Shown here: piece by piece, positions 1,240-43,945 of the stretch
Layout: the number at the start of each line of letters is the position of its first letter
Position numbering within the stretch: the first letter of the stretch is position 1
The notes under the pieces: model-generated
The model's input: only the letters and a program-made list of their open reading frames with translations
What the model was told of the DNA's origin: nothing
The model's database searches: none
Position numbers and translations under genes: made by a program
Assembly: GCA_034440635.1 (NCBI GenBank)
Contig: JAOTON010000056.1
Location: forward strand, 1,149,501 to 1,213,500
Direction of reading: 5' to 3'
Length of the DNA stretch: 64,000 bases
Source of the DNA: Lepas anatifera
Taxonomy: Eukaryota; Arthropoda; Thecostraca; Lepadidae

Positions 1240-2320
1240 TTCTTAGACCACAAGGGGCTCAGACAGACCACAGAGGGCCTGAGCACACCAAAGGGGCCGG
1301 GCAGACCACAGGAACCCAGAAACCATAGGACGCCGGTAAGCCCAAAAGGGGCCCGAGCAGACCACACACAGCCAGCAATTTGGCTGGACTCTGCCCGATA
1401 TATGCTGGGCTTTGACTGGGCAGAACCCGCGTACATGGGCTCAGCCCAGGTCCGGCTCCGCTGCGCCTGGGCAGAACCCATGGTCAAGCAAGACCGGGCT
1501 CTACCGCTCGGGCAAGTTGTCATCCACCGACCTAATGTTGGGCTCAGCCCGAGTCTATGTGGCTCAGCTATGAGTCTTAGGGCTCGGGCAGAGCCTGGCC
1601 CAGCCTGCTCTGGGCCCGGTCGGAATTGCTGGCTGGGCAGCGGGCCCGGGCAGACCACACGGGGCCTGGACAGATGAAAGGACCCGGGCAGACCACAGGG
1701 ACCCGAGCAGAACACAGGGGCTGGGTTAGCCACAGAGGGGCCCCAGTCTGGAAAGTATGGCAGCAGACCCGACGAGTCCGCACCAGCCTTGTAAATTTTT
1801 CGCACCACCAGCAGCCTAAAATTCACACCAAGCATTGGTGAGAAATTTCACTGACCTGGAAATTTCGATGTTTTTACCAGTTTCTCCCTTCTCAGACCTC
1901 TGTGGCTGTTTGATTTGAGCTCCCTCGCACCATACAGCAAAAGTGGGCATTTGTTTGCTCCAAAGTTCGAACCACCTGAAGGATGTCCGCACCACGAGAT
2001 CTCGCCAAAAGTGCCATACTTTGCAGACTGGGAGGGGCCCGGGCAAACCACAGAGGGCCCGCGCAGACAAAAGGGGCCCCGAACGGATAAAAGGGGGTCC
2101 GCAGAGGCCACACAGAGGCCCGGACAGACCAAAAGGGTTCCGGGAAAACTACAGGAGGCCCGGGCAGACCACAAGGGGCTCGATCAGAACAAAATGGGCA
2201 CTAGCAGACAAGGGGTCCGTGCAGACCAAATGGGACCCAGCCAATCTGCAAAGTATGGCAGCAGGCCAGACGAGTCGCACCAGCCATCCAAAATTATCGC
2301 ACCACCAGCCTAAAAAAATC
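1240..2320. repeat. Minisatellite A, block 1 (~19-20 bp units)
   Basis: Degenerate tandem units of the form GGGCCCGGGCAGACCACAG alternate with diverged spacers (e.g. 1255-1320, 1650-1720, 2035-2235). A segment of about 80 bp around 1740-1810 (CCAGTCTGGAAAGTATGGCA and a run of CACCAGC) recurs near 2235-2320, so there is a higher-order repeat. The open frames here are a by-product of low stop-codon content. Confidence 0.75.
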
Positions 2321-2579
2321 GCACCAATCTGCCATATACCAGGGAGAAAAACGCACACATTTCTACCCACACGATGCAATACTACCTCTCTTATTAGTTA
2401 GTTAAGGACTTTTTATAAGGCCCCTCCCGTGTCTTCCTAACTATTCAGTCATAATTTTTTTTTAGTTTTCAGTGTCAACTTCCTCGCACCAGTCTTGCAA
2501 ATTCGCACCAGGCTGATAAAATTCGCACCACTCGCTCCTGTCTCCAAGGGCACTCACACCGACGAGATCTCGTCGAAAA

Positions 2580-2720
2580 TGCCATACTTTGCACACTGGG
2601 GCCCGGGCAGACCACAGGGGCCCGGACAGGCCACAGGGGGCCCGGTCAGACCAATAGGGGCCCGGGATACCACAGGGGCCCGCATGGCAAGCATGGCAGA
2701 GGCTGGTTGCAGTTACACGA
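2580..2720. repeat. Minisatellite A, block 2
   Basis: Short run of GGGGCCCGGRCAGACCACAG-like units, continuous in style with 1240-2320. The preceding ~60 bases (ATGCCATACTTTGCACACTG) also occur near 2010-2030, so whole segments have been duplicated. Confidence 0.7.
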
Positions 2721-3640
2721 ACCGCATCCATGGCAGGCCCGTCTGCATCCACAGGGTATTAACTACTGGGAGTAGGGACCCGGCTGCAGCCACCAGGGGG
2801 CGGGGCGAATGGGGTGGCCACCAGGGGGGGGGCGAATGGGGCAGCCACCCCTTAAACCCAAGAGCCTCTGAGGACGAAATGCTTCCCCCAAACCCTCCCC
2901 TCCCCCAGGATGCGACGATTGGTCGCCCTTTGGGTGAAAAGTGCGCCCTTCGGGTGGCTAAGTGCCACCCTGTCCCCTGAAGCTTTGCCCCTACCCTTAC
3001 TCAAATTCTAGATACGTCACTGGCGGCCATAGGGGGCAAAAGATTATCCAAGTCTTGGTATTTAGCCATCAGGGGAGCCGGACAGGGGATCATCACTCAT
3101 TGAGGATTTAGCCCGACAGGAGCTAATAGCAAACAATCACTTCATTTGCCATTCAACACTGCGCATCGGAGCACGATTTGGATTGACACGAAAAGCCCAA
3201 ACGTAAAATCCAAATCAGAGCCTAACGAAACTTTTCCAGAATAGACACAAGCCGATTGAATCATATGCATGCCAATTTTACTGTTCAACGCAAACTTTGT
3301 GCAAATCATTCGCCTCGGCGAATGCGACAAGAGAGCCAGGAGCATGCCTTAGATTCCTTCGCGCTGCGGTGACAATCCTGGGAAATTAAGAGGCTACCAT
3401 TCGCCGGTGGACGCACATTATTTGACCCGGATTTGACGACAAGATATGATACACTTTTTGACAGACAAATTTAAGAGGCTTAAATTTGTCTGTATTTAAA
3501 ATTCCACTTGAACAAACAAAAATGGAAAACTTCATGCACATTTCTGACAAAAATGCCTAGAAATATATCAATGAAGAAAAGTAGTGCCGGCGGAAAGATG
3601 CCAAAATAACAAACATATGTCAATGTAATAAACCAGTACT
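2721..3640. other. Unassigned; possible transposon 3' end at 3008-3022
   Basis: The GC-rich part ends in TTCTAGATACGTCACTG (3006-3022). This resembles the inverted CAGTGACGGATC termini of the hAT-like elements elsewhere in the window. I could not find a matching left end or a target duplication. The stretch 3023-3640 is AT-rich and shows nothing recognisable. Confidence 0.35.
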
Positions 3641-3803
3641 TATCGGAAGGGGCCCGGCTGCGCACAGTGGGGGGGGGTGAACTACGGGGGGTCGTAAGCA
3701 AGACAAGGAGCCCGGCTAGAGCCAGAGGAGGCCTGGGTAGCCCAGAGGGAGCCTGAAATTATAGCACGGGTTCCCGGATACAGCGAAGTGGGAGGAGTGG
3801 AAT

Positions 3804-3976
3804 CAGGGGTGGATTCAGGCCGACGGTGGGTGGAGGGGGGCAACGGGGCCCCAAATCGTGAAAAACATATGGTTTTTGTTTGAAGAAAACCCGTAAAAAA
3901 TCGGTAAAATCGGGGGGATTTGGGGAGGGCATCAAATCCCCCGATTTTACCTTTACCCCCCTGGATCCGCTAGTGC
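3804..3976. mobile_element. MITE-like copy with internal hairpin
   Basis: The left edge CAGGGGTGGATTCAGG and right edge CTGGATCCGCTAGTG are imperfect inverted ends. An inverted repeat (3903-3922 with 3933-3951, one bulge) forms a stem with GGTAAAATCGGGGG arms. The internal sequence (CAACGGGGCC, CGTGAAAA, then AT-rich) is also found at 7249-7381 in the same orientation, so the two copies bracket the minisatellite at 3985-6950. No 8-bp target duplication is evident. Confidence 0.5.
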
Positions 3977-3984
3977 TGTGGTTC

Positions 3985-6950
3985 CTTGCAGACCACAGGG
4001 ACACGGACAAACCATAGGGACCCGGGCAAATTGCAAGGGGCTGGGCAGACTGCAGGGGGCTGGGTAGACTACAGGGGGCCCGAGCAGACCACAGAGGGCC
4101 CAGGCAGACTAAAAGGAGCCCAGACCGCCCACAAGGGGCGCGGGCAGACCACAGGGACCCGGGCGGACCACACAGGACCCAGGCACACTACAAAAAGCCC
4201 AGACCACCTACAAAGGCCCCGGGCAGACTAAAAGGGGCCAAGGCAGAATACAAGGAGCCCGGTTGCAGTCACAGAGGAACCAAAAAGGTCCCGAGACTGT
4301 CAGAAATAGGGCCCCGGATGCAGTCAAAATGGGCCTGAGAATATCGTTAGGGGCCCGTTTACGGACACAATGATTATGGGTGGCCCTAAAGGGGACTGCA
4401 CCCAAGCGAGCATGCCAGGCAAGCATGCCAGGGAGCCCGACCGCAGCCACAGCAAGCCCAGATAGACCACGGGGCCCCGCACTCATGGCAAGGGCCCGTC
4501 CGTGGCATTAGAGGACCCGCGCCTCCTGGACTACAGGGAGCCCGGTTGCAGTCACAGGTCCCGGTTGCAGTCACAGGGGGCCCGGGTGGATCACAGGCGC
4601 CCGGTTGCGGTGACAGGGGCTCGGGCGGATCACAGAGGGCCCGGTTGCAGTCACAGGGGCCCGGGTGGATAACAGGGGGCCGGGTGAATTCCAGGGGCCC
4701 GGTTACAGTCACAGGTGGCCCGGTTGGACCACAGGGAATCCGTTTGCAGTCACAGGGGGCTCGGGTGGATCTCAGGGGACCCAGTTGCAGTCAAAGAGGG
4801 CCCGTGTGGATCACAGGGGGCCCAGGATGGATCACATGGGACCTGGGTGGATCACAGGGGGTCCCAGGTGGATTACAGGGGGCCCGATTGCAGTCACAGG
4901 GGGCCCGGGTGGATCAAAGGGGGCCCGGGTGGATCAAAGGGGCCCGGTTGCAGTCACAGGGGGCCCGGGTAGATCATAGTGGGCCCGGGTGGATGAAAAA
5001 GGGCCCGGTTGCAGTCACAGGGGGCCCGGTTGCAGTCACATAGTGCATGGTTGCAGTCACAGGGGCCCCGAGTGGATCACAGATGGCCCGGTTGCAGTCC
5101 CAGGGGCCCGGGTGTATCACAGAGGGCCCGGTTGCAGTCACAGGGGGCCGGGTGGATTACAGGGGGCCCGGTTGCAGTCACAGGGGGCCGGATGGCTCAC
5201 AGAGGGCCCGGTTGCAGTCACCGGGGACCCGGGTGGATCACAGATGGCCCGGGTGGATCTTAACTGGCCTGGTTGTAATCACAGGGGGTCCAGTTGCAGT
5301 CACAGGGGGGCCCGGGGGATCACAGGGGGCCCGGTCGCAGTCACAGGGGGCCTGAGTGAATCATAGGGGGCCCGGTTGCAGTCACAGGGGCCTCGGTGGA
5401 TCACAGATGGCCCAGTTGCAGTCACAGGGGGCCCGGGTGGATGACAGGGGGCCGGTGGATACAGGGGCCGTTTCAGTCACAGGTGGCCCGGTTGGACCAC
5501 AGGGAATCCGTTTGCAGTCACAGGGGGCCCGGGTGGATCTCAGGGGGCCCGGTTGCAGTCAAAAAGGGCCCGAGTGGATTATAGGGGGCCAGGATGGATC
5601 ACATGGGGCCCCGGGTAGATCACAGGGGGCCCCAGATGGATTACAGGGGGCCCGATTGCAGTCACAGGGGGCCCGGGTGTATCACAGGGGGCCCGGTTGC
5701 AGTCACAGGGGGCCCGGTTGGATCATAGGGGGCCCGGTTGTAATTACAGGGGGCCCGAGTGGACCACATGGGGCCCGGTTGCAGTCACAGGGGGCCTGGG
5801 TGGATCATAGGTGGCCCGGTTGCAGTCACAGGGGCCCCGGGTGGATCACAGAGAGCCCAGTTGCAGTCACAGGGGGCCCGGGTGGATGACAGGGGGCCCG
5901 ATTTCAGTCACAGGGGGCCCGGGTGGATCATAGATGGCCCGGTTGCAGTCACAGGGGGCCCGGATGGAGTCACAGGGGGCCCGGGTGAATCATAGGGGGC
6001 CCCATTTGTAATTACAGGGGGCCCGGGTTGATCACAGATGGCCCGATCCCAGTCACAGGGGGCCCGGTTGGATGATAGGGGGCCCGGTTGTAATCACAGG
6101 GAGCCCGGGTGGATTACAGGGGGCTCGGTTGCAGTCACAGGTAGGCCGGGTGGATCAGAGAGGGCCCGGTTGCAGTCACAGGGGCCCAGGTTGGATCACA
6201 GATGGCCCGGTTGCAGTCACAGGGGGCCCGGTTGGAGTCACAGGGGGCCCGAGTGGATTACAGGGACCCCGGTTTCAGTCACAGGGGGCCCGGGTGGATC
6301 ATAGATGGCACGCTTGCAGTCACAGGGGACCCGGTTGGAGTCACATGGGGCCCGGGTGGATCATATGGGGCCAGGTTATAATTACAGGGGGCCCGGGTGG
6401 ATCACAGAGGGCCCGGTTGCAGTCACAGGGGACCGGGTGGATCGCAGAGGGCCCGGTTGCAGTCACAGGGGCCCTGGTGGATCACAGTTGGCTCTGTCCC
6501 AGTCACAGGGGGCCCGGGTGGATGATAGGGGGCCCGGTTGTAATCACAGGGAGCCCGGGTGGATCACAGAAGACCGACCCGGTTGCAGTCACAGGGGGCC
6601 GGGTGGATCGCAGAGAGCCTGGTTGCAGTCACAGGGGCCCCGGTGGATCACAGTTGGCCCGGTCCCAGTCCCAGGGGGCCCGGGTGTATCACAGGGGCCC
6701 GGGTGGATGATAGGGAGCCCGGTTGTAATCACAGGGGCCCGGGTGGATCACAGGGGGCCCGTTTGCAGTCACAGGGGTGCGGGTGGATCAAAGAGGGGCC
6801 CGGTTGCAGTCACAGGGGGCCGGATAGATCACAGGGGGCCCGGCTGCAGTCACAGGGGGCCCGGGTGGATTACAGGGGGCCCGGTTGCAGTCCACAGGGG
6901 GCCCGGGTGGATCACAGAGGGCCCGGTTGGATGACAGGAGGCCCGAGACT
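3985..6950. repeat. Minisatellite A, main array (~20-21 bp units)
   Basis: About 2.9 kb of tandem units. The first ~250 bp use the GACCACAGGG type. From 4530 on, two alternating units dominate: GGCCCGGTTGCAGTCACA and GGCCCGGGTGGATCACA, each closed by a run of G. The two types alternate over long stretches, giving a ~41-bp dimer as a higher-order unit. Most units differ by one or a few bases. All plus frames stay open for hundreds of bases and encode Gly/Pro-rich collagen-like strings, which I regard as artefacts of the repeat. Confidence 0.9.
4285..4505. repeat. Direct repeat flanking array A, left copy
   Basis: Non-minisatellite segment containing GGGCCTGAGAATATCGTTAG, a GCAAGCATGCCAGGGAGCC stretch and ATGGCAAGGGCCCG. 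It is matched by 6945-7137 in the same orientation, with visible divergence and small indels. Confidence 0.7.
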
Positions 6951-7137
6951 GCCGGAATTAGGGACCCGGCTGCAGTCAAGAGTGGGCCTGAAAAATATCG
7001 TTAGGGGCCCGGTTGCGGACACCGAGGTTAAGGATGGCCCACAGGGCACCCGCAAGCATGCCAGGGAGCCTGGTCTCAGCCAAAGCTAGCCCAAGTAGAC
7101 CACTGGGGCCCGGAATCGTGGCAGGGGCCCGGCTCTG
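6945..7137. repeat. Direct repeat flanking array A, right copy
   Basis: Second copy of the segment at 4285-4505 (shared GCCTGARAATATCGTTAGG and GCAAGCATGCCAGGGAGCC). The pair brackets the densest part of array A. The same arrangement, a terminal segment repeated inside the array, is seen in the other large minisatellite elements. Confidence 0.7.
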
Positions 7138-7248
7138 TCCGCAGGGGCCCGCAACTTGGGATTGGGGGGCTCGTCGGGTCATTGGGGGGGCTTCTCCGAG
7201 CATTGGGGGGCTCGAGCCCCCCAAATATATGGAAACTTGCGCCCCTGG

Positions 7249-16852: not shown

Positions 16853-17944
16853 CAGGGGCGCAGCCAGAGCTTTCGTATGGGGGGGGGCACACCAACTTTG
16901 AGGGGCACCCCGGGAAAAAGGGCACTTTTTAACGTAACCTAAAAAAGCTTACTATATCTTTGTTTATATCATTTTTTGGCATCTTTGGTTCAATAAAAAT
17001 GCAAAGAACTCATTGACGGAGAAGGAAAACTCGATTAAAACCGAAAACAGGAACACAATATGGCCAAAATGCCATGGAAGTAGCCAAAACACTACTTTTT
17101 TGGGATAGATTTAAGGACAGCCAACTCATGCAAGTACTTAACATCAGCGGAGCATGTGATGTCTGTTACAATGTGCAGGTTAAGGCATATTGGAGTCGAA
17201 ATTTTTTTTGTTATGCCCACTGGTTTTGTCGTGACGAGTGAGCCCTGGCTGAACGAGGATTAAGTTCCTTGCCTCCCACAATCGCCGTGGGACGAGGAGT
17301 GGCATAGTGTCTTTGGAAGAACATATTTTTGCTGCCGGAAAAATTTGGGAGATACCTTTTGAACTCGTTTATTAAGTTCCATATTCTCAGGGATCGGTCC
17401 CAGTTAAGAGTAAATAAAAGGTGAACAGGCCGGTGGTTTGGATGGGGATGGTGTGACAGGGCTGAAAATTGTAACAACTAGTTCTTCATTTAAATTAATT
17501 AGTAGAAATCCTGGTTTAGGGGACTGTGCTCTGAGCTCAGGGGCACATGCCTTTTTACATCCCTTCCCAGAATCCACCAGTATACTAAACAATTTATATA
17601 ACCTGGGGTGCCTAGGTATCACAAGCCGTTTTAAAGATTCCTCATTCCTCGTTAGCTCCGTTTTACAAGGGGAGTTTCCATTGTGTTCTTATTCCCCATC
17701 TATTCAAGACCAGCTCTGGGGCCCCCAAATGTGGATCAGAGGCCCCCAGAGCAGCTTCCCCCATCCCCCAGTTGTGCCTCCAGGGACTAGACTAGCTCAG
17801 TGACCCCGCCCCGAAATGATGGGAGTTGGCCTTGTGTTATTATTATCTGTCTATTCAAGACCACCTCAGGGGCCCCTGATGTAGATCAGGCCCAGTGACG
17901 GATCCAAGGGGGGCCCAGGTGGCCCGCCCCCCCCCTTAGCTCCC

Positions 17945-20117
17945 AAGCGCCCCAGTATATCTTAGCTCATATCGGGCGCCGAAGGCGCCCAATATAAGTG
18001 GCGCGCCTGTACCCATCTCGTGCGCCAAGGTGTAGATACCACGTATTCCACTTGAATTAACACATACTCCTTAAAACCATGGCAAAGCGCCCCTGCCCAA
18101 ACATTAGACGCCTTTACTGGTCTTTTGCGCCCCAGTAAAATGTTGCAGATGAAATTTAGAAAGCTTACAAAAGCGCCCCGGCAAAGAAAAGGCGCCACTA
18201 GATAGCAAGATTGCGCCATGGGGAACTAATACACCCCTGAGTAGCCTAGGTGCCCCCTGGATGAAGCGCCCCTAGGTAGCCTAGACGCCCCCCTGGATGA
18301 AGCGCCCTACGGATATCATATGCGCCCTTGGCTAGGAAAGGCGCCCCTGGGCAGCAAAGGCAAATCTCGGTAACATATGTACCCCGGACAGCATAAGCGC
18401 CCCTTAGATAGAAATAGGTGCTTTAGGAATATGAAATGCTCACCTTGGGTAGAAAAGGGCGCCCTTTGATAGCCTAGGCGCCCACTGGAAAAAACGCCTT
18501 ACGGATGTCGTATGTACCCTTGGATAGCAAAGGCGCCCCTGGACAGCAAAGACAACCCTGGATAACACAAGTGCTGTGGACAGCAAAGGCGCCCCTGGGT
18601 AGCAAAGGCGCCCCTAGGAAGGCACCCCTTCGATAGAAAAGCCGCCTTTGGATAGCCTAGGCGCCCACTGGATGAAGCGCCCTACGGATATCATATGCGC
18701 CCTTGGATGGGAAAGGCGCCCCTGGGCAGGCAAAGGCAAATCTTGGTAACATATGTACCCCGGACAAAATAAGCGCCCCTTAGATAGAAGTAGGCGCTTT
18801 AGGAAAATAAAATGCTCACCTTGGGCAGTAAAAGGCGCCCTTTGATAGCCTAGGCGCCCACTGGAAAAAGCGTCCTACGGATATTATATGCGCCCTTGGC
18901 TAGGAAAGGCGCCCCTGGGCAGCAAAGGCAAATCTTGGTAACATATGTACCCCGTACAGCATAAGCTCCCCTTAGATAGAAGTAGGCGCCTTAGGAAAAT
19001 AAAATGCTCACCTTGGGCAGAAAAAGGCGCCCTTTGATAGCCTAGGCGCCCACTGGAAAAAGCGCCCTACGGATATCATAGGCGCCCTTGGCTAGGAAAG
19101 GCGCCCCTGGGCAGCAAAGGCAAATCTTGGTAACATATGTACCCCGTACAGCATAAGCGCCCCTTAGATAGAAGTAGGCGCTTTAGGAAAATAAAATGCT
19201 CACTTTGAGCAGAAAAAGGCGCCCTTTGATAGCCTAAGCGCCCACTGGAAAAAGCGCCCTAAGGATGTCATATGCACCCTTGGATAGCAAAGGCGCCCCT
19301 GGACAGCAAAGACAACCCTGGATAACACAAGTGCTGTGGACGGCAAAGGCGCCCCTGGGTAGCAAAGGCGCCCCTAGGAAGGCACCCCTTCGATAGAAAA
19401 GCCGCCTTTGGATAGCCTAGGCGCCCCCTGGATAAACTAGGAGCCCGAGAAGGAAAACGAGCGCCCCACTGGGAAATACAGGCTCCCTCTGTATAACATA
19501 GATGTCCCTTATCCACCTTCAGCTGCCCTGGATTGGAGCAGCGCCCCCCAAGAGCAAAGGCGTTCTTGGACAAAAAGCCGCCTCCTGGCATCAAAGGCGC
19601 TCCTAGATAACATATGCGCCCCTTAGATAGAAATAGGTGCTCCAGGAAAGCAAAATGCGCCCCTTGGTTAAGAAAGGTGCCCTTGGATAGCAAAGGCGTC
19701 CCTGGACAGCAAAGGCAAATCTGGGAAACATAGGTGCCCTGGACAGAATAGGAGCCCCTTAGATAGAAATAGGCACTTCAGGAAAATAAATGAAACCCTT
19801 GGATAGAAAAAGTGCCCTTTGATAGTCCAGGCACCCACTGGATAAAGCGCCCACGGATATCATATGCACTTTTGGAGGCGCCACTGGACAGCAAAAACAA
19901 CCCTTGACACAAGTGCTTTGGACAGCAAAGGTGCCCCTAGGAAGGCACCCCTTCGATAGTAAAGGCGCCTTTGGATAGCCTAGGCGCTCTCTAGATAAAC
20001 TAGGTGCTTGAGAAGGAAAATGAGCGCCCCATTGGAAAGTACAGGCTCCCCCTGTATAACATAGATGTCCCTTATCCATCTTCAGCTACCCTAGATTGGA
20101 GCAGCGTCCCTCAAGAG
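17945..20117. repeat. Minisatellite B (~19-20 bp units), left part
   Basis: The units follow GGCGCCCCTGGATAGCAAA, with variants such as GCGCCCTTGGCTAGGAAAG and GTACCCCGGACAGCATAA. Longer blocks recur: the series around ATATGCGCCCTTGGCTAGG appears near 18315, 18690, 18885 and 19075, so a higher-order unit of roughly 190-370 bp is superimposed. Segment 18500-18670 recurs near 19270-19430. Open frames through it (e.g. minus 19268-19693) are repeat artefacts. Confidence 0.9.
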
Positions 20118-20130
20118 CAAAGGCGCCGCT
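20118..20130 (+). repeat. LINE target-site duplication, left copy
   Basis: CAAAGGCGCCGCT, repeated at 21954-21966 directly after the LINE 3' tail. The sequence belongs to minisatellite B. Paralogous minisatellite at 19550-19590 shows the uninterrupted order (AGAGCAAAGGCG.. then GGACAAAAAG). Confidence 0.8.
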
Positions 20131-21953
20131 AGCAGTGGACACGACTCTCGCCCAGAGTGCTAAATCGGAAATGAGTCCCCAAGAATTGAAGGCTCTAACT
20201 CTTGAACATATTTCACAATATCATCGACATGCAATGTTCTATACAGATGGGTCGAAGACTGACACTGGGGTAGGTTGTTCGTTCGTTATCGGCACAACTT
20301 CTCGGACATTTTCACTTCCCCCTCTTGCTTCTGTTTTCACAGCAGAACTGACTGCTATTGACAAAGCTCTGTGCTTTTTAGATATTTCTGACCAAACAGA
20401 TTTTGTCATTTTTACCGACTCGTTGAGAAGCATCCAGACCTTAATGAGCTTTAATTCTAAAGACAATTTTGTTCAGAAGATGCAGCTCCGCTTAACCTGT
20501 CTGGCCAAAGATGGTAAAAATGTTACTTTGTGTTGGGTGCCCAGCCATGTGGGAATAGAGGGGAACGAGAGGGCGGACGCAGCCGCCAAGCGTGCCTCAA
20601 GCCGCCCCTGTACACGCAGGCTACCAATCCCGGCCCGAGACCTACTTCCCCATCTTTCTTTGCACCTTCGGAATTCCTGGCAGCGCTGGTGGATGACGCA
20701 TACGCACCATAAATTGCTGGAGATAAAGCCAGAGATTGGTGAGTGGCTCTGTTCATCGCGGCGATGCCGGCGCGAAGAGGTGGCACTCTGTCGATTACGT
20801 ACTGGTCACACCCTGGCGACCCACCGATATCTTCTTTGCGGGGAGGCGAGACCACTCTGCCGACGCTGCCTGGAACCGCTCTCAGTCCGCCACGTACTGG
20901 TGTCGTGCCCTGACTATGACCTTGAAAGAGACAGATACTTTGGCCCTCGAGAACAAGAACTGACATTGATTGATTTGATAGGTAGGAATGCTGATATGAT
21001 CAGCCAGATCCTCGATTTTCTCAGAGCCATATGTTTCACAGTCATATATGACCCAGGGTGATTGCTCTGCTCAGGGGTGCAGAGTGTGGAGCTTACTGGT
21101 GAGTGCTGACTTTTTACTGTGGATGTTTAATCTATGTAACTGTTTGTCCGCCCAGTGATGGGGATGGGAACGTGGGATTTTTTTTATTTGTACCAAGTGC
21201 TTGTCTTACTGCAGACCTAACCGCTTGAATCATCTATGACCCTGGTTAAGCGTAACATGTTCCGTGAGGACCTAAGCTGAACACTGTTTGACATACTTCA
21301 GCCTAATGCCTTAGTACACATACCGTGAGTCCTCCGGGTGACGCTGCGCGGAGGGCTGCCTGGCGCGGAGCGCCTGACTCCCCCTGTGGAGTCTCACGCC
21401 CGTGCTGAGACTACACTGCCGTCCGGCGGGGGCGGGCGTGGGTCACATGAAAATGTGACTTGCGCCTGTCTTCCGTGGGGGGGGCAGCGCAGGGGGAGTC
21501 CGCCTAGGTGCCCAGCTGTTTGCTGGGCGCCCGGGCGGACTCAGGGACTTCCCCGTACTCCCGGGCCCCCTGGGTCCGGGGGTACGGAGTGGGCGTCGGA
21601 ACTGACGCCCCGACGCCTCGTGCCGGGCGCTCTCTGCGCGGCGTTGCCTGGTGGATCTTGTAGGGTCTAGGTTTTGTTTTCAGGATAGGAAGGGCTGATG
21701 TTAGTAGTGTGTGTGCATCACGCGTTCTTCTTGTTCCAGATGGAGCACTTTTAGCGATTGTACTGTTCTGGGCGCTATGTGGCGTTGCCGGCTGGTGCGC
21801 CCTCTAGGCCCAAATAACTAACTTACTAACTGCTTGAAACAGACCATAAACATGTATTCAGGAAGAGGTTATTAAAGGCATTAGCCTTAGTTGATCTGGG
21901 CGCTATATAACCACTAAGGTTGGTGCGCCCTTAAGCCCCAATAATCAATCAAT
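20131..21953 (+). mobile_element. 5'-truncated I-group LINE (non-LTR retrotransposon)
   Basis: About 1.8 kb bounded by a 13-bp target duplication (20118-20130, 21954-21966). It holds the RNase H and C-terminal zinc-knuckle part of ORF2, a GC-rich 3' UTR (21300-21680), and a tail GGCGCTATATAACCACTAAG-GTTGGTGCGCCC-TTAAGCCCCAATAATC ending in AATC repeats. A similar sequence (GGGCGCTATGTGGCG..GGTGCGCCCTC) sits upstream at 21769-21810. Endonuclease and reverse transcriptase domains are lost through truncation. RNase H after the RT is characteristic of the I group (I, Nimb, R1 and relatives). The tail matches the SINE tails in this window. Confidence 0.9.
20132..21061 (+). pseudogene. LINE ORF2 C-terminus: RNase H plus CCHC knuckle
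   Basis: The open frame runs from 20096 (its first dozen codons are minisatellite) to a stop at 21061. The RNase H core is visible: YTDGS with Asp at residue 51 of the open frame, Glu84 in FTAELTAIDKA, Asp108 in IFTDSL, and Asp161 in NERADAAAK, preceded by WVPSHVGIEGNE. All four acidic catalytic residues are present. The CRLRTGHT motif follows, then a zinc knuckle with Cys255, Cys258, His266 and Cys271. RNase H removes the RNA strand during reverse transcription. The frame is intact but lacks the endonuclease and RT, so it is an inactive fragment. Confidence 0.93.
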
Positions 21954-23626: not shown

Positions 23627-23681
23627 CGGCCCTGGATAGTAAAGGCGCCCTTTGATAGGATAAGCGTTCCTTAGCAACAAT

Positions 23682-23748: not shown

Positions 23749-23984
23749 AAAGCATTCCTTAAATGTCTTCCTTATAACTGTATTATTTGCTCATCGGGCT
23801 TCAGTTAGCGTCAGTGGGTGCTTTCAGCATTTTCTACCAAGGTACCAGTCGTTAGCTGGCCGGAAATATGCTTGATGGTAAACGTGAAGATGTCTTTACT
23901 AAGAGGAAGCCTTCATGAAAATAAGCATTTACAAATACTTTTTTAAACGCGTTTTACATTGACACTGGCCGCCTCTTGGGTGGT
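23749..23984. other. Unassigned interior of element B
   Basis: AT-rich sequence between a LINE tail and the MITE, with no recognised repeat. Confidence 0.4.
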
Positions 23985-23992
23985 AAATTGGC

Positions 23993-24498
23993 CAGTGACG
24001 GATCCAAGGGGGGGCAAAAAGGCATTCCCCAAACGGAAAAGCTCGGGGCAACACTATGTTTTTGACCCCCAAAGCGATCGACCTCTTTTTTCCCTACTCC
24101 TTTTTAGTTTATAAACAAGATTTTGGTGTTTCAACTCTCAACTTCAAACAGAACATAAGTTGATAAGATGTTCCCTGGCCTGTCCCCTCGAATCCGGAAA
24201 TGTAAAAAACACTGAAGATTATGTATTCGGGCACAGCCCTTCATCAAAATCATGGAGTAAATATCAATAATTCTCAGTTATAATATAGCCAGTCATAGCA
24301 TAGCCAGCCTTGGATAGGAAGAAGTATCTCGAGCCCATCGTTTTCACCCCGTGACGTTTTTTTAGCTTTTCGCACTGAAATACCCAAAATTCTACCGGAA
24401 AGTGATATTGATAGCGCAGCTTTTTACTGCGTGAAGTTTTTTTTTGCTTTTCGACTTTGGTCTGCCCCTCCCAAACCGACCGGCTACATCCGCCACTG
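23993..24498 (+). mobile_element. hAT-like MITE (506 bp)
   Basis: The ends are CAGTGACGGATCCAAGG and CTACATCCGCCACTG. The target duplication AAATTGGC is at 23985-23992 and 24499-24506. It is non-coding. Motifs include GGCATTCCCCAAACGG near the left end and T-runs ending in TGCTTTTCGACT near the right. A second copy with the same flanks is at 24951-25464. Confidence 0.9.
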
Positions 24499-24506
24499 AA
24501 ATTGGC

Positions 24507-24586
24507 GCCCCTCAGGTTCGGCGCCCCCAGGTTCGGCGCCCTCCGAGCCTGGCCCCCCTCTTAACGAAATCCTAGATCCGTCACTG
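24507..24586 (+). repeat. 3'-terminal segment of element B, internal copy
   Basis: GCCCCTCAGGTTCGGCGCC, GAGCCTGGCCCCCC, then AACGAAATCCTAGATCCGTC and ACTG. It is repeated nearly unchanged at 25473-25554, where it forms the true right end. Confidence 0.85.
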
Positions 24587-24950
24587 CCTTTACCAACACA
24601 AAACTAGGTCCACTCAGGTAAAAGGAAGAAAATATAAAAAGCCTAGGACGAGTCTGACAATTTCGGTGAGACGTCCCCTCATTCACGAGGTGAGGGTGCG
24701 TTTCCCTGTCCCCACACCGCACTTTGGACACCCATGGTAATCGGGCTACTATCGCTGTAAAATCCGATCGTTCATGTGTCTGTAATACAGACACAGGACT
24801 ATTGTATGAATAATGGTGGCAATGCACCTATTACGTTTGCTTACATTGGCCAGTGGCGCTTATTGGTTTACATTGCTTTATTGCTTACATTGGCCAGTTG
24901 CGTACATTGGCCAGTGGCGCTACCTATTACGCTTACGTTAGTACATTGGC

Positions 24951-25464
24951 CAGTGGCGGATCCAGGGGGGGCAAAAATGGCATTCCCCAAACGGAAAAGC
25001 TCGGGACAAAACTATGTTTTCGCCCCCAAAGCGATCGACCTCCTTTTTCCCTAATCCTTTTTAGTTTATAAGCAAGATTTTGGTATTTCAACTCTCAACT
25101 TCAAACAGAACATAAGTTGATAAGATGTTCCCTGGCCTGTCCCCTCGAATCCGGAAATGTAAAAAACACTGAAGATTATATATTCGGGCACAGCCTTTCA
25201 CCAGAATCATGGAGTAAATATCAATAATTCTCAGTTATAGTATAGCCAGACCTCCACAGTATAGCCAGCCTTGGATAGGAAGAAGTATCTCGAGCCCTTT
25301 TTTGGCTTTTCGTCTGAAATACTCCAAAATTCTTCCGGCAAGTGATATTGGTGGCGCAGCTTTTGACTGCGTGACGTTTTTTTGTTTTTGTTTGTTTTTG
25401 TTTTTTTTTTTGCTTTTCGACTGTGGTTTGTCCCTTCCAAGCCGACCGGCTAGATCCGCGACTG
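24951..25464 (+). mobile_element. Second copy of the hAT-like MITE
   Basis: The ends are CAGTGGCGGATCCAGG and CTAGATCCGCGACTG. The right flank is AAATTGGC as in the first copy, and the left flank is ACATTGGC (7 of 8). Because the host flank to the right is also identical to that of 23993-24498, this copy arose by duplication of the whole 3' part of element B, not by independent insertion. Confidence 0.85.
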
Positions 25465-25562
25465 AAATTGGCGCCCCTCAGGTTCGGCGCCCCCCAGGTT
25501 CGGCGCCCTACGAGCCTGGCCCCCCCCCTTAACGAAATCCTAGATCCGTCACTGATCAGGCC

Positions 25563-27250
25563 ACAAAGCAGCTCATGCTTCACCCAGGGACTAGACTAGC
25601 TCATTGGTCCCAGAGATGAGGTCATCAGACTAGCTCAATGGGCCACAGATAGGCTCATAGGACCTTAAAACAGTTCAAGAAGCCCCAGAACAGTTTAAGG
25701 CGCCAGATCACCTCAGGGGGCCTCAAGCCAACTTAAGGGGCTCTCACAAGCTCAGCGCCCAGACCAGCTCAGGGTACACTCAGAACCTAGACCCGCTCTT
25801 GGGCCCCAGATCAGCTCTTGGGGCCCCAGATCAGTTCAGGGGCCTCAAGTCAGGTCAGGGGGCAGGATCAAGTCAGGGCCACTAAATCAGCTCAGGAATC
25901 CCTCACCAGCTCGGGGCCCAAGCAATTCAAAAGCCCCAGAGCTGCTCAGGGAACACCAGATCGGCCCATAGGGCACCAGATCAGCCTCGGGGACAAATAA
26001 TCAGATCAGTGGTCCCCGACCAGCTCGGGGCTCAGATCAGCTCGGGAATACCAGATCAAGTCAGGAGGCACTTCAGCTCAGGAGCCCCATACCATCTCAG
26101 GGGCCCTCACCAGCCCCTGTGGGCCCAGTTCAGCTCAGGGCCTGGGAGCTGCTCAGGAAATCACGTAATCAACCCAGGAGGCCCGAGTCAGCTTAAAGGG
26201 CACCATATTAGCCATGGGGCACCAGACTAGCTCAGAGGGAATAAGATGGGCTCAGGAGACACACTGATGACTCAGCAGGCACCAGATCGACTCAGGGGGC
26301 ATTAGTTAAGTTCAGGAGGCAGTATATCTGCTCAGGGTGCACCAGATCGATCAGCACAGGGGCATGTTCAAGTCAGGGGCACTAAATGAGCTCAGGGATC
26401 CCTCATAAGCTCGGGGCCCAATCAGTTCAAAAGCCCCAGAGCTGCTCAGGGCACACCAGATGCCCATAGGGCACCAGATCAGCTCCGGGGACAAACAATC
26501 AGATCAGAGGTCCCCGACCAGCTCAGGAATACCAGATCAAGTCAAGAGGCACTTAATCAGCTCAGGAGCCCCATACCATCCCAGGGGCCCTCATCAGCCT
26601 CTGTGGGCCGAGCTCAGCTCAGGGCTTTAGATCTGCTCATGAAATCGCGTAAGGAGGCCCAGATCAGCTTAAAGGGCACCAGATTACTCAGGGGGGGCAT
26701 CAGATGGGCTCAGGAGGCACGAGATCGACTAAGGGGCATTAGTGCAGCTCAGATGGCACCAGATCGATCCGCTCGGGGTCCAGATCAGCTCCCAGCCCCC
26801 AGACTATGGCAGGAGCCTAAATCAGCTCAGGGAGCAACGTAACAGCTCGGGGGACACAAGGTGGGCTCAGGGCCCACCAAACCAGCTCAGGGGGGACCAG
26901 ACCATCTAAGGAGATATCAATAATCAGTTGAGGGGGCACCTAATCCGCTGAAGAGGCACCATATTGACTTAGGAGACAGAATCAACTTGGGGAGGCATGA
27001 GATCAGTTCGGGGGCCCGAATCAGCTCAAGGGGCACTAAATCAGCTATTAGGGCACCAAACAAGCTTGGAAGCATTAGACTAACTCAGAGAGCATTATAT
27101 AGGTTCAGGAGGCACAATTATTTGCTCAGTGGGGCACTCGATTGACTCAGGGGCACCAGATCAGCTTAGAGGGCAAGTAATCAGCTCAAGGGGCCAAGAC
27201 CAGCTGAGAGGCCACGAGATGAGCTCAAGGAGCACCAGATTGGCTTTACC
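25563..27250. repeat. Minisatellite C (~20 bp units)
   Basis: Tandem units CACCAGATCAGCTCAGGGGG with variants (GACCAGCTCGGGGCCCA, ATCAGTTCAAAAGCCCC). Sub-blocks recur at larger scale: 25875-26130 resembles 26365-26600. It shares its first ~900 bases with 59812-60721. Confidence 0.92.
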
Positions 27251-29172
27251 CGTACGATTATTGGCGACAATGAGGCATTAGGTGGGCACATACTAGGTGC
27301 CCATACTCTTCCCGGGTGCTTGGAAAGGCGATAGAATGCCCTAGCTGACCGAGAAAGGTATTAAGTTGTCCAACAATAGTTTCAATTGCTACATGCGGTC
27401 CAGTTACATCTAGGTTTAACGGCTAAGGCACTAACTTTAGAGCGGCACGGCCCAAATTGGGTACACCACCCGGTAATCAAAAGGGCACCCCGGCAGTGAT
27501 GGGGGCACGTGCCTCCTGTGCCTTCCTGGCTGCACCCCTGGACAGTAGATCAACTCCGGGAGGCATTAAATAAGCTCAGGGGTCCGGATCAGCTCAAGGG
27601 GCACTAAAACAGCTAAAAGGACTCCAGGCAAGCTCGGAGGCATCAAACTAACTCAGAGAGCATTTTATAGGCTCAGAAGGCACACTTATTTTCTCAGGAG
27701 GGCACCAGATTGACTACGAGGGCACGAGATCAGCTCAGAGGGCACATGATCAGCTCCAGGGGGCACCAGATGAGCTCCGCCCGTACGATTATTGGCGACG
27801 AAGAGGCATTATCTGGAAACGGATTACGCGCATATGCTTTTCCCGAGTGCTTGGAAAGGCGACAGAATGCCCTAGCTGACCAAAAAGGCACTTAGTTTTC
27901 AAACAATAGTTGAAATCGCTAAATGCAGTCTAGTTACATCTAGGTTCAACGGCGCAGGGCACTAAATTTCGAGCGGCACGGCCCAAAGAGGGTAGGTACA
28001 CCACCTGGCAATCAAAAGGGCACCCGGCACCGATGGGTGCACGTGCCCCCTGTGCCCCCTGGACAGTAGATAAACTCCGGGAGGCATTAAATAAGTTCAG
28101 GGGGCCCGGATCAGCTCAAGGGGCACTGAAACAGCTAATAGGGCAGCAGGCAAGCTCGGAGGCATCAGACTAACTTAGAGAGCATTATATAGGTTCAGAA
28201 CGCACAATTATTTATTCAGGGGAGGGGGGCACCAGATTGACTACGAGGGCATCAGATCAACTTAGAAGGCACATGATCACCTCCAGGGGGCACCAGATGA
28301 GCTCCACACGTACGATTATTGGCGACGATGAGGCATTATCTGGAAACAGATTACGTGCCTATACTATTCCCGGGTGCTTGGAAAGGCGACAGAATGTTTT
28401 AGGTGACCAAAAAGGCACTTAATTGTCAAACAATAGTTGAAATCGCTAAATGAGGCCTAGTTCCATCTAGGTTCAACGGCATAGGGCACTAAATTTCCTG
28501 CGGCACGGCCCAAAGGGGGTACACCACCTGGCAATCAAAAGGGCACCCGGCACCGATGGGGGCACGTGCCCCCTGTGTCCCCTGGCTGCGGCCCTGGACA
28601 GTAGATAAACTACGGGAGGCATTAAATAAGTTCAGGGAGCCCGGATCAGTTCGAGGGGCACTAAAACAGCTAATAGGGCACCGGGCAAGCTCGGAGGCAT
28701 CAGACTAACTCAGAGAACATTATATAGATTCGGAAGGCACAATTATTTTCTCAGGGGGGCACCAGATTGACTACGAGGGCATCAGATCAGCTCAGAGGGC
28801 ACATTATCAGCTCCAGGGTTCAGGACCAGCGCTCAGGTGGCACCAGATGAGCTCAAGAGGCACCAGATTAGCTCTGCCCATACGATTATTGGCGACGATG
28901 AGGCATTATCTGAAAACGGATTACGTGCCCATACTCTTCCCTGGTGCTTGGAAAGGCGACAGAATGCCCTACCTGCCCAAAAAGGCACTTAATTGTCAAA
29001 CAATAGTTTAAATCACTAAATTGCAGTCTAGTTCCATCTAGGCTCAACGACGTAGGGTACTAAATTTTGAGCGGCACGGCCCAAAGAGGGCACACCACCT
29101 GACAATCAAAAGGGCACCCCGGCACCGATGGGGGGGGCACGTGCCCCCTGTGCCCCCCTGGCTGCGCCCCTG
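27251..29172 (+). repeat. Four ~535-bp tandem copies of the element C 3' end
   Basis: The anchor CGTACGATTATTGGCGAC occurs at 27251, 27782, 28319 and 28879 (last slightly changed), giving spacings of 531, 537 and 560 bp. Each copy runs AGGCATTA, CTTGGAAAGGCGA, a CACGGCCCAAA segment, CAATCAAAAGGGCACCC and GGGGCACGTGCC. Copies end at relics of the terminal repeat: CTGGCTGCACCCCTG (27526-27540), a shortened CTGG near 28058, CTGGCTGCGGCCCTG (28582-28596), and the true end (29158-29172). After each internal relic GACAGTAGAT joins straight into minisatellite units. Confidence 0.92.
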
Positions 29173-35839: not shown

Positions 35840-37495
<1,656 letters not shown>

Positions 37496-39044: not shown

Positions 39045-40251
39045 CAGTGGCGTAGCCAGGATTCGGCCAAAGGGGGTCCGACTACCGTCGGGGGCCCCCC
39101 AGGCCGGGGGCCCCCTTAGTAGTCGGGGCCCATCTCCTATATGTGTCGTATAATATTTTGGCATTATAAAATTTACACGATGGAAATTTTTATATCCCTT
39201 TTTAAATGTTTGTTATTATTTTGTTTATAGTTTGATTTTTCTCGATCCGACCACGTGTTGGTAAATTTAGGTCACCAAATATTAAGGCTGGCCCATACCT
39301 ATATGACAGCGTGGCTATAATAATAGTTTTGTGGCACATTTCGGGAAATCAAATGTTGCTGCGTGCATGATGTTAAACCTGACTTTACCTCAATTCACTC
39401 TAGTAATCAGGTATGAAGTCATTGAAGGTCAGTCGTTTTGAGTACGAATAAATGGTCTTCTACGGAAAATGATTACAATTTTTTTCCGGGTGTCGAATTC
39501 ATGAACTTCCGGGTGTGGAATTTCATCAGAAAGTTTCCAAAGAAATGGAAAAAATGAATAAAAATACAAGGGATATGGTGGATGGTGGTGTATTCCGGAC
39601 GTCATATAACGTCTATTCCGCGGAAAGATCCTGATGAATTCACCACAGTTACTTTCGTACCCTTGCTATGTTGTAAATGAGCAAATTACCAAAACAATAG
39701 GCGCCTGAGATAACTATCGCCTTGGATTACTCTGTCATTGTTATTTTAAACCTTTCATACCTATTTTTCTTTTTGAGATTATGCTCATCAATATGTGTCA
39801 TTTTCCCGTGTTTGTGTGGTTTCCTACGAAAATATTTGAAAGTTGTTTATTTCAGAATATTTAGGACGGTAGTTATGGGGACTAAGGTAATAGATTGAAA
39901 ACCAGCTGAAGTTCCAAATTCCCTGTTCGATTTGCTATTATGGATGCTAAAATAAGATTAATTTTTGCCTTTCCTTCAGTAATGGTGCCTGATCGACATG
40001 TTTCAATTTGTCTTTTTGTTAAGCAATGGGAATATATAAATTTTTCCGAGGCATATGATTTTCGAAATCTTCTTTGAGCCTAGCATCTCAAGCGATATCT
40101 CTGGATTGTATTCTGAAATCTAAAAGAAATGGAAAGGAAAAAGGACGCTCAATAAGAAGGATATATGACTGTGCTCAGATGCTATATAAAACCTATTCCA
40201 TGGACGATCCTGCTGATGAAACCGCTCACTTACTCCTCCCTAGCCATTGGT

Positions 40252-40410
40252 TGGAGATCCCGGGGGCTTGGGGAGGTGAGTACTTCCTTGGACTTTAGGT
40301 CTCTGATAGGCTTTGTACAGGGCTTGTATTGCTATGCCAGTGTTAAGCCATTCAGGACCATCACCCACCGCCCCCCGCCCCCCGACTCCTGGGTCGAGCA
40401 GAGATCTCCA
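40252..40410 (+). mobile_element. Short inverted-repeat element, copy 1
   Basis: Ends TGGAGATCCCGGGGG and CAGAGATCTCCA. The interior has TTGGGTCTC-like, CTTTGTACAGGGCTT and CCAGTGTTAA motifs. It is matched by 56513-56645 in the same orientation. Confidence 0.7.
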
Positions 40411-40411
40411 G

Positions 40412-43400
40412 GGGCCTAGCACTTGACAGGGCGCCGAAACCAGTATCTGGGACCCCCGAAAACAACACTTTTCCCGCAAATCAGTATTTACGTCCCCCAA
40501 AACCAGCATTTGGGGGTACCATGAGACTACCTACTGGGACTCCTTGGAACTTACTCTCGTGGGGCCCTGAGGATAACTTTGAGGGGAGGGGGAGGAAGGA
40601 GAGGAATGCTCGCTGAGACTAGCTTTTGGGGACACTTGAGGGCAGCTTCTGGGGAACCCTGAGACTAACTCCTGGAGACCTCGTGAGACTAATTGTCGGA
40701 TCTCTGAGATTAGCTCTCCGGCCCTCCTTACACTAGAACTGAAAGGTCCCCTGAAAGTAACTCGGGTTTCCGAGATCAGTTCTTGGGGGACCTGAGACTA
40801 GCTCTGGGGCCGCCTAAGACCAACACTTGGCGCTACTCACAAGATTAATTTCTGGCCCCTCTCCCGATTAGATCTCAGGGAGTCTCTGATGTTGATTCAC
40901 GGCGCCTCTTGACCAAAATTGTGGACTCCTGAGAATCTCTCGGGGCTCCCTAGATTAGTTATCGGCAGCACCTCTGGGCCTATTTATCGGGCCCCCAGAT
41001 TTGCTCTGGGGGAGGGGGCTGAGACTGACTCTCGGGGCCATCCAGATTAGCTCTTGGGGATCCCCTGAGGCTGTCTCTGGGGTGGGGCGGGGAGCTGGGA
41101 ATGACTTCCGACAGCCCTCTGAGACTAACCCTGGGTCGCCCTCTGAGACTAACACTCGAGGAGGAAGGCGTGGAAGCACCCCTAAAACTGAGTATTTGGC
41201 ACGGCACTCCCGAGACTGCCTCTGGGAAGCCCAGATTAGCCTTCAGAGGCCTAAGGCTAACTCGGAGCCGTGAGACCAAAATTCGGGAGCACCTCTGGGA
41301 ATTACTCTCAAAGCCCCAAAATTAGCTCTTGGACCAACCGGAGACTAGCTCCCGGGAGCACTCTGAGACTAACTTTTAGGTGCTCCCTGAGATTGACTCT
41401 CGGGGCCTCTTATGCAACAACTAGGGGGGCACAGCCTCAGGCTAAATCTCGAGGGTTCCCAAGATTACCCCTCAGGGGCCCCCTGAGATCAGCACTCTGC
41501 GGATCAAATGAGACTAACTCTCGGACCCCTAGATTAACTCTCGGGGCCACCTGAAAGTAAATATTGACTCCTGAGAGAGACGCCCGTAAGACTATGGGAC
41601 CGAATATCGGGGATCCTCTAAGACTGACTCTCGGGGTCCCCTTGACCGACACTAGGGGTTCTCTGAGACTGACTCTCATGGAGCCCCCTGAAATAGTCTG
41701 TCGCAGGGCCCTGAGAACCACTCTCTGGGGGACGCTGGGACGAGCTCGGCCCCCTGAGACCGACTCTCGGGGCCCCTGAGACCGACTTTCGGGATCCCCT
41801 GAGACTAACTCTCAGGGACCCCTGAAATCTACTTTTGGGGGTCTTGAGACTGACCCTCAGGGCGGGGCCCTGAGGCCGACTCGGGACACCCTGAGAACGA
41901 ATCTTCAGTGGCTTCTGAGACTGATTCTGGGGGCCCCGTGATCAGAGAATGCTTTGCAGTGGTTCAGATTGGCCCAAAGGGAGTCCTCGGTCTCCTAGAA
42001 CCCCTTGGCTACGCCACTGCATTCACACATTCGGGGGCCCACCGAGATCAGCACTTGGAGGCCCCTGAAATCATTGCTTCCCCCGATACCAATACTCCGG
42101 AGCCCCTGGATACTGATGCGCGGGGCTCCTAAGACCAAGCTCGGGGTTCCACTTAGATCAGATTCGGGGGCACCCTTAGGCCTATGCTTGCGCTTTTCTC
42201 AGGAGTAACTCGACACCGTTGTTCGGGGAGCCCCCAGATCAACATTCGGAGCCCCCCCGAGACTAATGCTCGGTACTCTGGAGCCCCCCTCGATACCAAT
42301 GCTCGAGGACCCTGAGCCCAAGCCTGGCCCCTGAGACCAAACTCTGGGTCCCATTGGGCCAATTCTCGTGCCTCGCTCATAAGTCCCCTCGATATCGATA
42401 GTCGGGGGCACCCCGAGATCAATATTGTCCCCCCCCACTTCCCGAGATCAATGTTCGCTGCTCCGGAGCCATCGATACCAATGCTCGGGGGATCCCTGAC
42501 ACCAGCTCTGGGGCTCCCTACGACCAAGATCGAAAGACCCGTGAGACCAAGCTCGGGGCCCCCTGAGACCAAACTCCGAAGGCCCGTGAGACCAAGCTCG
42601 GGCCCCATGATGCAAAGCTTGGGGGCCCTGAGACCAAGCTCAGGGCCCCTGAAACCAAGCTCGGGGGGGGCCTGAGACCAAGTTCGGGGGCCCTTGAGAC
42701 CGAGCTCAGGCGGCCCCTGAGATCAATGTTCGGTACTCTGGAGCCTTAAATACCGATGATCGGGGGGCCCCTGAAACCAAGCTCAGGGGCCCCTGAGGCC
42801 AAACTCGGAGGGCCCCTGAGACTAAGATAGATAGGCCCCTGAGACTAAGCTCAGGGGTCCCTGAGACCAAGCTAGGGGGCCGCCTGAGACCAAGATCGAA
42901 AGGTCCGTGAGACCAAGCTCGGGAGCCCCTGAGACCAAGTTCGGGGGTTCCCTGAAACCAAGCTTGGGGGCCCCTGAGACCGAGCTCTGAGGCCCCCTGA
43001 GACAAAACTCGCAGGGCCCCCTGAGACCAAGATAGAAAGGCCCCTGAGACTAAGCTCGGGGTCCCTGAGACCAAGCTAGGGGGACCTTGAGACCAAGATC
43101 AAAAGGCCCGTGAGACTGAAGCTCGGGGGTCCCTGAGACCAAGCTCGGGGGCCCCTGAGACCGAGCTCAGGGGGCCCCGAGATCAATGTCCGGTTCCCTA
43201 CAGTCTCGATACCGATGATCAGGGGCCCCCTGAGACCAAGCTCGGGGGCCCCTGAGACCGAGCTCTGAGGCCCCCTAAGACAAAACTCGGAGGGCCCCCT
43301 GAGATCAAGATAGAAAGGCCCCTGAGACTAAGCTCGGGGTCCCTGAGACCAAGCTAGGGGGACCCTGAGACCAAGATCGAAAGGCGCGTGAGACTAAAGC

Positions 43401-43945
43401 TCGGGGGCCCCTGAGACCGAGCTCAGTGGGCCCCCGAGATCCATGTTTGGTACTCTGGAGCCCTCGATACCGATGATCGGGGGCCCCTGAGACCAGGCTC
43501 GGAAAGCCCCTGAGACCAAGTTCGGAGGTCCCTTGAGACCAAGCTCAGGGGCCCCTGAGACCAAGCGCGGGGCCCCTGAGACCGAGTTTGGGGCCCCCTG
43601 AGACCAAGCTCAGGAGGCCCGTGAGACCAAGCTAGGGGACCCTGAGACCAAGATCGGGGGCCCCTGAGGTCGAGCTCAGTGGGCCCCCCGAGATCAATGT
43701 CTGATTCCCTAGAGTCTCGATACCGATGATCAGGGGCCCCTGAGACCAAGTTCGGAGGTCCCTTGAGACCAAGCTCAGGGGCCCCTGAGACCAAGATCAG
43801 GGGGCCCGTAAGACCAAGCTTGGGGGCCCCTGAGACCAAGCTCGGAGGTCCCTTGAGACCAACCTCGGGGGCCTGAGATCGAGCTCGGAGGGCCCCCTGA
43901 GACCAAGCTCAGGGGGCCCCTGAGACCAATGCTCGTGTTTTCCAG
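40412..43945. repeat. Minisatellite D (~20 bp units)
   Basis: Units CCTGAGACCAAGCTCGGGGG with GGGCCC joins. They are more diverged on the left (40412-42200: GAGACTAACTCTCGGGG types) and more regular on the right. Higher-order blocks marked by CTCGATACCGATGATCGGGG recur near 42750, 43205, 43470 and 43715. Long minus frames are repeat artefacts. Confidence 0.92.
41949..42019 (+). repeat. Internal copy of the element D 3' terminus
   Basis: The segment ends in CCTTGGCTACGCCACTG (42003-42019) and parallels the true right end at 43945-44009, including the preceding CCCAAAGGGAGTCC / CCCAAGGGGGG part. After it minisatellite units resume. Confidence 0.8.

Follow-up and report, generated by a model that had tools for sequence, protein, structure and literature searches.

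Minisatellite-rich hAT-like transposons in Lepas anatifera and a candidate route for their growth

Introduction

Why should four different minisatellites, all with a period of about 20 bp, lie within one short stretch of the genome of Lepas anatifera, and do they share an origin? The stretch in question, here called the window, comprises 64,000 nucleotides of contig JAOTON010000056.1 (positions 1149501-1213500) in assembly GCA_034440635.1, which comprises 1.04 Gb in 2126 contigs, and the four arrays are designated A, B, C and D. A preliminary description, made from the letters of the window alone, had proposed that the four units follow one skeleton in one orientation, that they make up most of three hAT-like transposons and of a block at 1-7 kb, and that they go back to a single ancestral unit repeatedly re-amplified as the interior of a transposon group, or else reflect a unit favoured by transposition or repair. 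Here, we examine where the arrays lie, how they pass from copy to copy, how they may lengthen and how far the four units are related.

Results

Tandem Repeats Finder (TRF) reported arrays of about 20 bp at the expected places in the window, and wraparound profiles of the units scored 0.70-1.24 bits/bp over the first 800 bp, as against 0.13-0.26 in dinucleotide shuffles (three shuffles each), so that the arrays and their period can be taken as confirmed. The consensus units are ACAGGGGGCCCGGTTGGATC for A (about 117-118 copies), CCCCTGGATAGCAAAGGCG for B (104 copies), GGGGCACCAGATCAGCTCAG for C (83 copies) and GGGGGCCCCTGAGACCAAGCTC for D (82 copies, with a period of 22); higher-order periods of 82, 192, 376 and 278 bp were also found by TRF. 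We then scanned 284 kb, that is, the window with 10 kb on each side and ten loci of 20 kb, for CAG-type ends flanked by 8-bp duplications. Sixteen elements with exact 8-bp target-site duplications were recovered, where a shifted-8-mer control expects 0.25: these are A, B, the two C copies C1 and C2, D, and 11 other elements (Table 1). Both ends of A, B, C and D begin with CAGTG or CAGGG, and 14-15 of their first 16 bases are inverted. The assignment of B, C and D to hAT-like elements is thereby upheld, and because the ends and the exact duplication of element A enclose the block at 1-7 kb, this block is a fourth transposon of the same kind. Unit-like sequence makes up 71% of element A, 75% of D, 66% of C1 (with B, which is nested in it, left out) and 49% of B, whose interior also contains one piece of a long interspersed nuclear element (LINE) and two copies of a miniature inverted-repeat transposable element (MITE). 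Against the two halves of C1 (B left out), C2 shows identities of 96.5% and 95.2%; it carries an insertion of its own of about 4.6 kb and, as read from its ends and flanks, is without B and keeps the unoccupied site of B near 59804-59811. Within C and D the unit-like sequence is interior and one-sided, the inverted likeness of the ends is short, and long terminal inverted repeats of the foldback type, with tandem repeats at both ends, are absent from the elements; membership of the foldback group is ruled out on these grounds. Helitrons and Helentrons have neither target-site duplications nor terminal inverted repeats, and the presence of both here rules out that group as well.

The arrays recur in the genome, and so do their borders. 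The exact A unit GGATCACAGGGGGCCCGGG occurs at 55 places genome-wide (its reversed control at 0) and the exact C unit AGATCAGCTCAGGGGGCACC at 56 (control, none); 20 kb was inspected around each of 10 hand-picked A places, together with two of the C loci. A-type ends with exact duplications were found by the scan at six A loci, and at a seventh, L025 (TTCCAAAT), if one missing right-end base is allowed. Within this sample, then, 7 of 10 A-array loci and one of two C-array loci are enclosed by matching ends and flanked by an exact 8-bp duplication, and it is to this extent that the arrays may be said to be bounded by such ends genome-wide. The left end is absent at the A loci L011 and L013. The bounded C locus, L038, is a 2934-bp C element with the exact duplication ACCAGAAA; at L037 a C-type array is present, but no ends were found; and another C-type element, of 2779 bp and with the duplication GTTTAAAG, adjoins an A locus. 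The longest row of units per A locus ranges from 47 to 140 (76-140 in the seven bounded copies). Outside the core array, six of the seven bounded copies are 0.95-0.99 identical to the copy in the window (L023, 0.65-0.95); across the first core block the seven give 0.82-0.96, with L023 lowest, and across later blocks 0.79-0.95. Units within the A array of the window are themselves 0.78-0.82 alike. Judged from these identities, the early part of array A clearly travels with the element; since the lowest values of the later blocks reach the level within an array, the register has been lost there, and some later turnover must have taken place. The view of the arrays as the interior of a hAT-like group is supported; that of a re-amplification at each insertion is not, since an A copy receives its array together with the rest of the element.

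Inside B, C1, C2 and D lie additional right ends that point the same way as the true end. Those of B, C1 and D resemble the respective true ends up to the last base (111/118 positions in B, 101/120 and 106/120 in C1, 80/117 in D), and what follows them is array in C1 and, past about 11 bases, array-like sequence in D. In the A copy L027 a right end lies inside the array and array follows it; the outer border of this copy was not established. Internal left ends were not found in the elements, except where the MITE copies within B begin. Moreover, L038 aligns over its full length to positions 1-3018 of C1 (78.7% over 3110 columns) and ends exactly at the first internal end of C1, which continues with three modules of about 520-580 bp that resemble each other. 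The internal end is therefore a working element border in another copy, and short and expanded forms of C coexist in one genome. With the junctions of the modules lying precisely at the tip, it seems likelier that L038 represents the older, short form and that C1 gained modules.

Are the four units related? Unit profiles were compared cyclically, in both orientations, against dinucleotide-preserving shuffles. Units C and D gave p=0.0005, the strongest of the six pairs; C also matched both the older array of D and a D-type array at locus L033 (p=0.0005 each, best fit reversed), whereas the main D array fits C best in the forward orientation. The D unit comes close to being its own complement, which leaves the orientation of the pair uncertain. 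L033 also holds a C-type array that fits C (p=0.001); at this locus (L033:4830-6000) the D-type array, with a D-like right end, directly adjoins the C-type array. The pairs A-B (p=0.03) and A-D (p=0.02) are marginal and both fit best when reversed, and no significant likeness was found for A-C (p=0.31), B-C (p=0.41) or B-D (p=0.33). Summed in the orientation of the preliminary description, the four units gave p=0.0033, the floor of 300 shuffles; without the C-D pair, the set test gave p=0.010 using the older edge units of A and 0.020 using the A core, and with B turned round, 0.050 and 0.037. As a control, 1 of 35 pairs among seven other minisatellites reached p<=0.05. The single skeleton of the preliminary description is thus upheld in part, for the set, which lies above shuffles, and for C-D; one clear skeleton in one orientation for every pair is not supported, as C-D is the one pair that convinces on its own and the G-runs of B lie on the other strand. 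The comparison supports units C and D as related and probably derived from an ancestral unit; the shared skeleton is real as a tendency, strong for C-D and unproven for B. A and B may descend from the ancestral unit of C and D, or they may only share a G-run motif. It is nearly an even question, leaning slightly to the negative, whether A and B resemble C and D through convergence, as G-rich minisatellites with a period of about 20 bp tend to look alike, with kinship limited to C and D: the non-significant and the reversed pairs and the strand of the G-runs in B speak for it, while the set test without C-D, and the rarity of such likeness among the control minisatellites, speak against it.

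The G-runs of array B lie on the minus strand (37 versus 1). The two end types of B are also turned round relative to C and D, so that, read in element orientation, B and C1 have the same G-rich strand; that of A also agrees if its left end is of the same type, as judged by eye. In D the two strands are balanced (77 G-runs, 69 C-runs), as they are in a C-type element beside L029 (20 and 23). G-runs are also present in the element ends, and a consensus built from nine ends of type CCARGGGGG fits unit B reversed (p=0.002) and, weakly, A (0.06), without a match to C (0.10) or D (0.42). When the arrays were compared with their own outer 60 bp, these pairings did no better than others, ranking 13th and 14th of 24, and a seeding of the arrays from their own tips is unsupported. 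A favourable-looking test with 90-bp ends (A, z=5.6; B, p=0.046; D, 0.024 and 0.008; C, 0.06-0.07) was set aside because 90 bp reach array units in A and D and because the right end of A was 4 bases short. A shared single-strand fold was sought with one 120-base piece per array on both strands; D alone beat shuffles (z -4.05 and -3.02), the pieces from A, B and C folded no better than shuffles (z between -0.1 and 1.6), and a structure common to the arrays was rejected.

A source of transposase was sought elsewhere in the genome. The hAT dimerisation domain gave 1241 candidate matches, of which 150 were scored, all at E<=0.001, and no match in 14 control genomes. Five loci with the domain were opened (L031-L034 and L036). 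The stretch formed by L032 and L035 contains an element of 7056 bp whose two 16-bp ends are identical (CAGTGGCGTAGCCAGG); its duplication differs at one position, and it encloses an open reading frame of 845 codons. At L036, where a single end was found, a frame nearly identical to this one matches DUF4371 (1.2e-17) and Dimer_Tnp_hAT (9.2e-9) in Pfam. No bounded element was found in L031, L033 or L034. The left tip of D consists of the same 16 bases as the ends of the L032+L035 element, which ties the D-type ends to a hAT transposase; neither TRF nor the profile scan found an array of about 20 bp inside this transposase-bearing element. Ten long frames from A-D were scanned against Pfam, and since nine had no match and the tenth matched RNase H, we call the A-D elements non-autonomous. 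The RNase H match belongs to the open frame of the LINE-like piece inside B (20060-21058; PF00075, 1.1e-12), and a coding role of the arrays was rejected: long frames exist, but of those scanned none matches Pfam save this one. Within the C2 insertion, a frame of 78 codons (61520-61753) looks zinc-finger-like by eye and has no Pfam match at E 0.1.

Table 1. Arrays, elements and right ends in the window (coordinates are window positions unless a locus is named; TSD, target-site duplication)
Feature	Position	Strand	Remarks
Element A	-47..7247	+	7295 bp; left end 48 bp upstream of window (L009:9953); TSD GCGGGGAT, right copy 7248-7255
Older, more degenerate A units	between 1245 and 4260	+	TRF, profile
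Array A core, ~118 units of ~20 bp	4533..6945	+	TRF, profile
Element C1, contains B	16853..29172	+	ends CAGGGGCGCAGCCAG; TSD TGGCTCTT at 16845-16852 and 29173-29180
Small C-array stretch left of B	about 17690-17892	+	read by eye
Element B, nested in C1	17893..25554	+	TSD ATCAGGCC at 17885-17892 and 25555-25562
Array B main block, 19-bp units	18071..20135	+	TRF, profile
Further array B blocks	about 21958-22310 and 22600-23100	+	TRF, profile
Two small elements without 17-24-bp array	23993-24498 and 52225-52506		exact duplications
Internal right end of B (TCCTAGATCCGTCACTG)	24570..24586	+	same orientation as true end at 25554
Array C and right-hand modules (array parts, tail, right end)	25563..29172	+	TRF, profile
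Internal right end of C1, array directly after	27524..27540	+	shorter C copy L038 ends here
Degenerate internal right end of C1	about 28060	+	module boundary
Second clear internal right end of C1	28580..28596	+	
Element D	39045..44009	+	ends CAGTGGCGTAGCCA; TSD GTTCCGAA at 39037-39044 and 44010-44017
D-type array, 75% of element D	40385..43984	+	TRF, profile
D-type array blocks	older left of 41945; younger 42020-43940	+	TRF, profile
Internal right end of D	42003..42019	+	same orientation as true end
Element C2	58780..68027	+	9248 bp; window part 58780..64000; right end L010:4027; TSD CCTTTACT

Several further observations concern these elements and their surroundings. The right-hand block of B is duplicated (23993-24587 and 24951-25554), and each of its two copies carries one and the same small element at an identical position, with the exact duplication AAATTGGC in the first copy and, by eye, one base different in the second. 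Two CAGGG-ended elements with exact 8-bp duplications were seen outside the window, one of 4641 bp (CAGGGTTGCCAGATG; L013+L014, 11873-16513) with 0 bp and one of 4029 bp (CAGGGATGCGGAGCCG; L019+L020, 1377-5405) with 47 bp of ~20-bp array. A repeat of about 1 kb with GGGGGCCATCGATGGCCCC-like ends, present by eye in two copies of opposite orientation (14240-15262 and 57520-58530), is perhaps another transposon family. Two very uniform arrays, of 32-bp units (15677-16188, 16 copies) and of 35-bp units (37868-38213, 10 copies), both with a 98% match by TRF, are unlike the degenerate arrays of about 20 bp. Finally, 37307-37429 resembles the opening exon of a gene for an epimerase (Pfam Epimerase, 5.6e-8) and 51336-51455, without a Pfam match, was read by eye as its next exon; if this reading is right, element D lies within an intron of the gene.

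Discussion

We consider it probable, though far from assured, that the arrays are the interiors of non-autonomous hAT elements, inherited between copies, and that they grow both by repeat turnover and by the gain of modules. Their mobilisation would presumably occur in trans, through hAT transposases whose genes lie elsewhere in the genome, with each family carrying its array from copy to copy. Lengthening may follow two routes. The first would be ordinary turnover of tandem repeats, which could account for the differences in copy number and for the higher-order periods; the second would be the gain of whole modules that end in a right terminus. In the latter, an element, or one cut end of it, would insert into the array of a sister or of another copy of the same family, and recombination between the arrays would then merge the two and leave an internal right end joined directly to element DNA; the merging is a step that we infer, as is the direction in which C changed between its short and long forms. 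The joining of a cut end into an array would be expected to give breakpoints exactly at the tip. It could be a full insertion followed by recombination of arrays, or a one-ended (alternative) reaction of the kind known in maize, in which end reactions between Ac/Ds copies make tandem direct duplications (PMC3744419).

Several results weigh against this scenario or narrow its reach. The first 11 or so bases past the internal end of D are unmatched, and for the sequence past that of B there is no match in the upstream part of the element (score 18, shuffled maximum 28). The gain of modules is not general in A, because the window copy and the seven bounded copies are without internal right ends (the right end of L025 was tested in the separate end check only). 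The left end of L027 is present, but neither of the two right-end-like sequences of this copy is followed by the 8-mer of the left flank. L038 could equally be a shortened derivative of a longer form, using the internal end, and no complete element was seen inside an array of its own family, as a nested intermediate would be. The link to a transposase, moreover, concerns the D-type ends only, the assignment of A, B and C to hAT resting on the likeness of their ends and on their duplications.

A bolder version of module gain seems to us unlikely, although it deserves mention. Here the hAT transposase itself would build minisatellite transposons: a cut right end would be joined into the array of the sister or of another copy of the family, each alternative or abortive transposition thereby adding a module of array plus right end; the arrays would be both a favoured target and a substrate for recombination, and all four families would stem from one self-feeding element.

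We regard it as improbable that arrays and modules alike go back to plain minisatellite turnover through slippage and unequal exchange, with the tip breakpoints as coincidences or copying artefacts. The higher-order periods agree with such turnover, and the mutual likeness of the extra C1 modules would be expected of unequal exchange after a first duplicate had arisen. However, the likeness of internal to true ends reaches the last base in B, C and D, a position that random breakpoints would seldom hit; nor can unequal exchange by itself bring the tip of an element next to an array without flanking host DNA.

It is likewise improbable that the units arose by amplification of transposase-binding boxes, a box with a G-run just inside the ends having been copied into arrays since more sites raise mobility: the G-runs in the ends, the fit of the nine-end consensus to B and, weakly, to A, and the extra transposase sites in internal repeats reported for Galileo and suggested for Tetris (PMC4079207) are in its favour, but units C and D do not fit that consensus, the arrays show no preference for their own outer 60 bp, the transposase-bearing element and two small bounded elements are without an array of about 20 bp, and further binding of the transposase inside the ends was judged unlikely for Hermes (PMC10368747).

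How do these elements compare with known systems? They share 8-bp duplications, CAG(T/G)G ends and the lack of a transposase of their own with non-autonomous hAT elements and MITEs (Ac/Ds, Hermes group), but differ from them in that most of the interior is a minisatellite of about 20 bp with internal copies of the right end. Their ends may resemble those of Tip100. In the foldback-like Tetris and Galileo of Drosophila, tandem repeats also lie in a non-autonomous DNA transposon, where they are proposed to derive from, or to act as, terminal sequence, but there the repeats (about 220 bp in Tetris) are within long terminal inverted repeats, whereas here they are interior and one-sided (PMC4079207). 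Helentrons with central tandem repeats (CgHINE) similarly spread satellite-like arrays genome-wide, in contrast to which the present elements have exact 8-bp duplications and inverted CAG ends (PMC9659126). BrickBuilt, a MITE of Porphyromonas gingivalis, has a minisatellite body of 23-bp units, but it is bacterial and a single family, without a hAT transposase (PMC4596501). In the alternative transposition of maize Ac, hAT ends react together and give tandem direct duplications; those reactions involve two nearby Ac/Ds elements and leave 8-bp duplications at the junctions, whereas here an element's own module of array plus end is repeated (PMC3744419). The 'mirages' of amphioxus were rejected as a parallel, being duplications of exons and introns (PMC3087553). 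No hAT family of this design was found in the open-licence literature of PubMed Central, which leaves a description in print elsewhere possible.

Minisatellites carried by transposons are thus a known kind, found here in a new form and with a way of growing that can be tested. Minisatellites and transposons are often treated apart; in the present case, transposons are themselves half to three quarters minisatellite. Their arrays are kept through transposition, and the fossil ends within them would record how the elements grew. The route suggested by these ends, in which an end is joined into the element's own array, is specific and can be tested by reading more copies. If it is general, it would explain the dispersed, related but non-identical arrays of about 20 bp in large, repeat-rich genomes.

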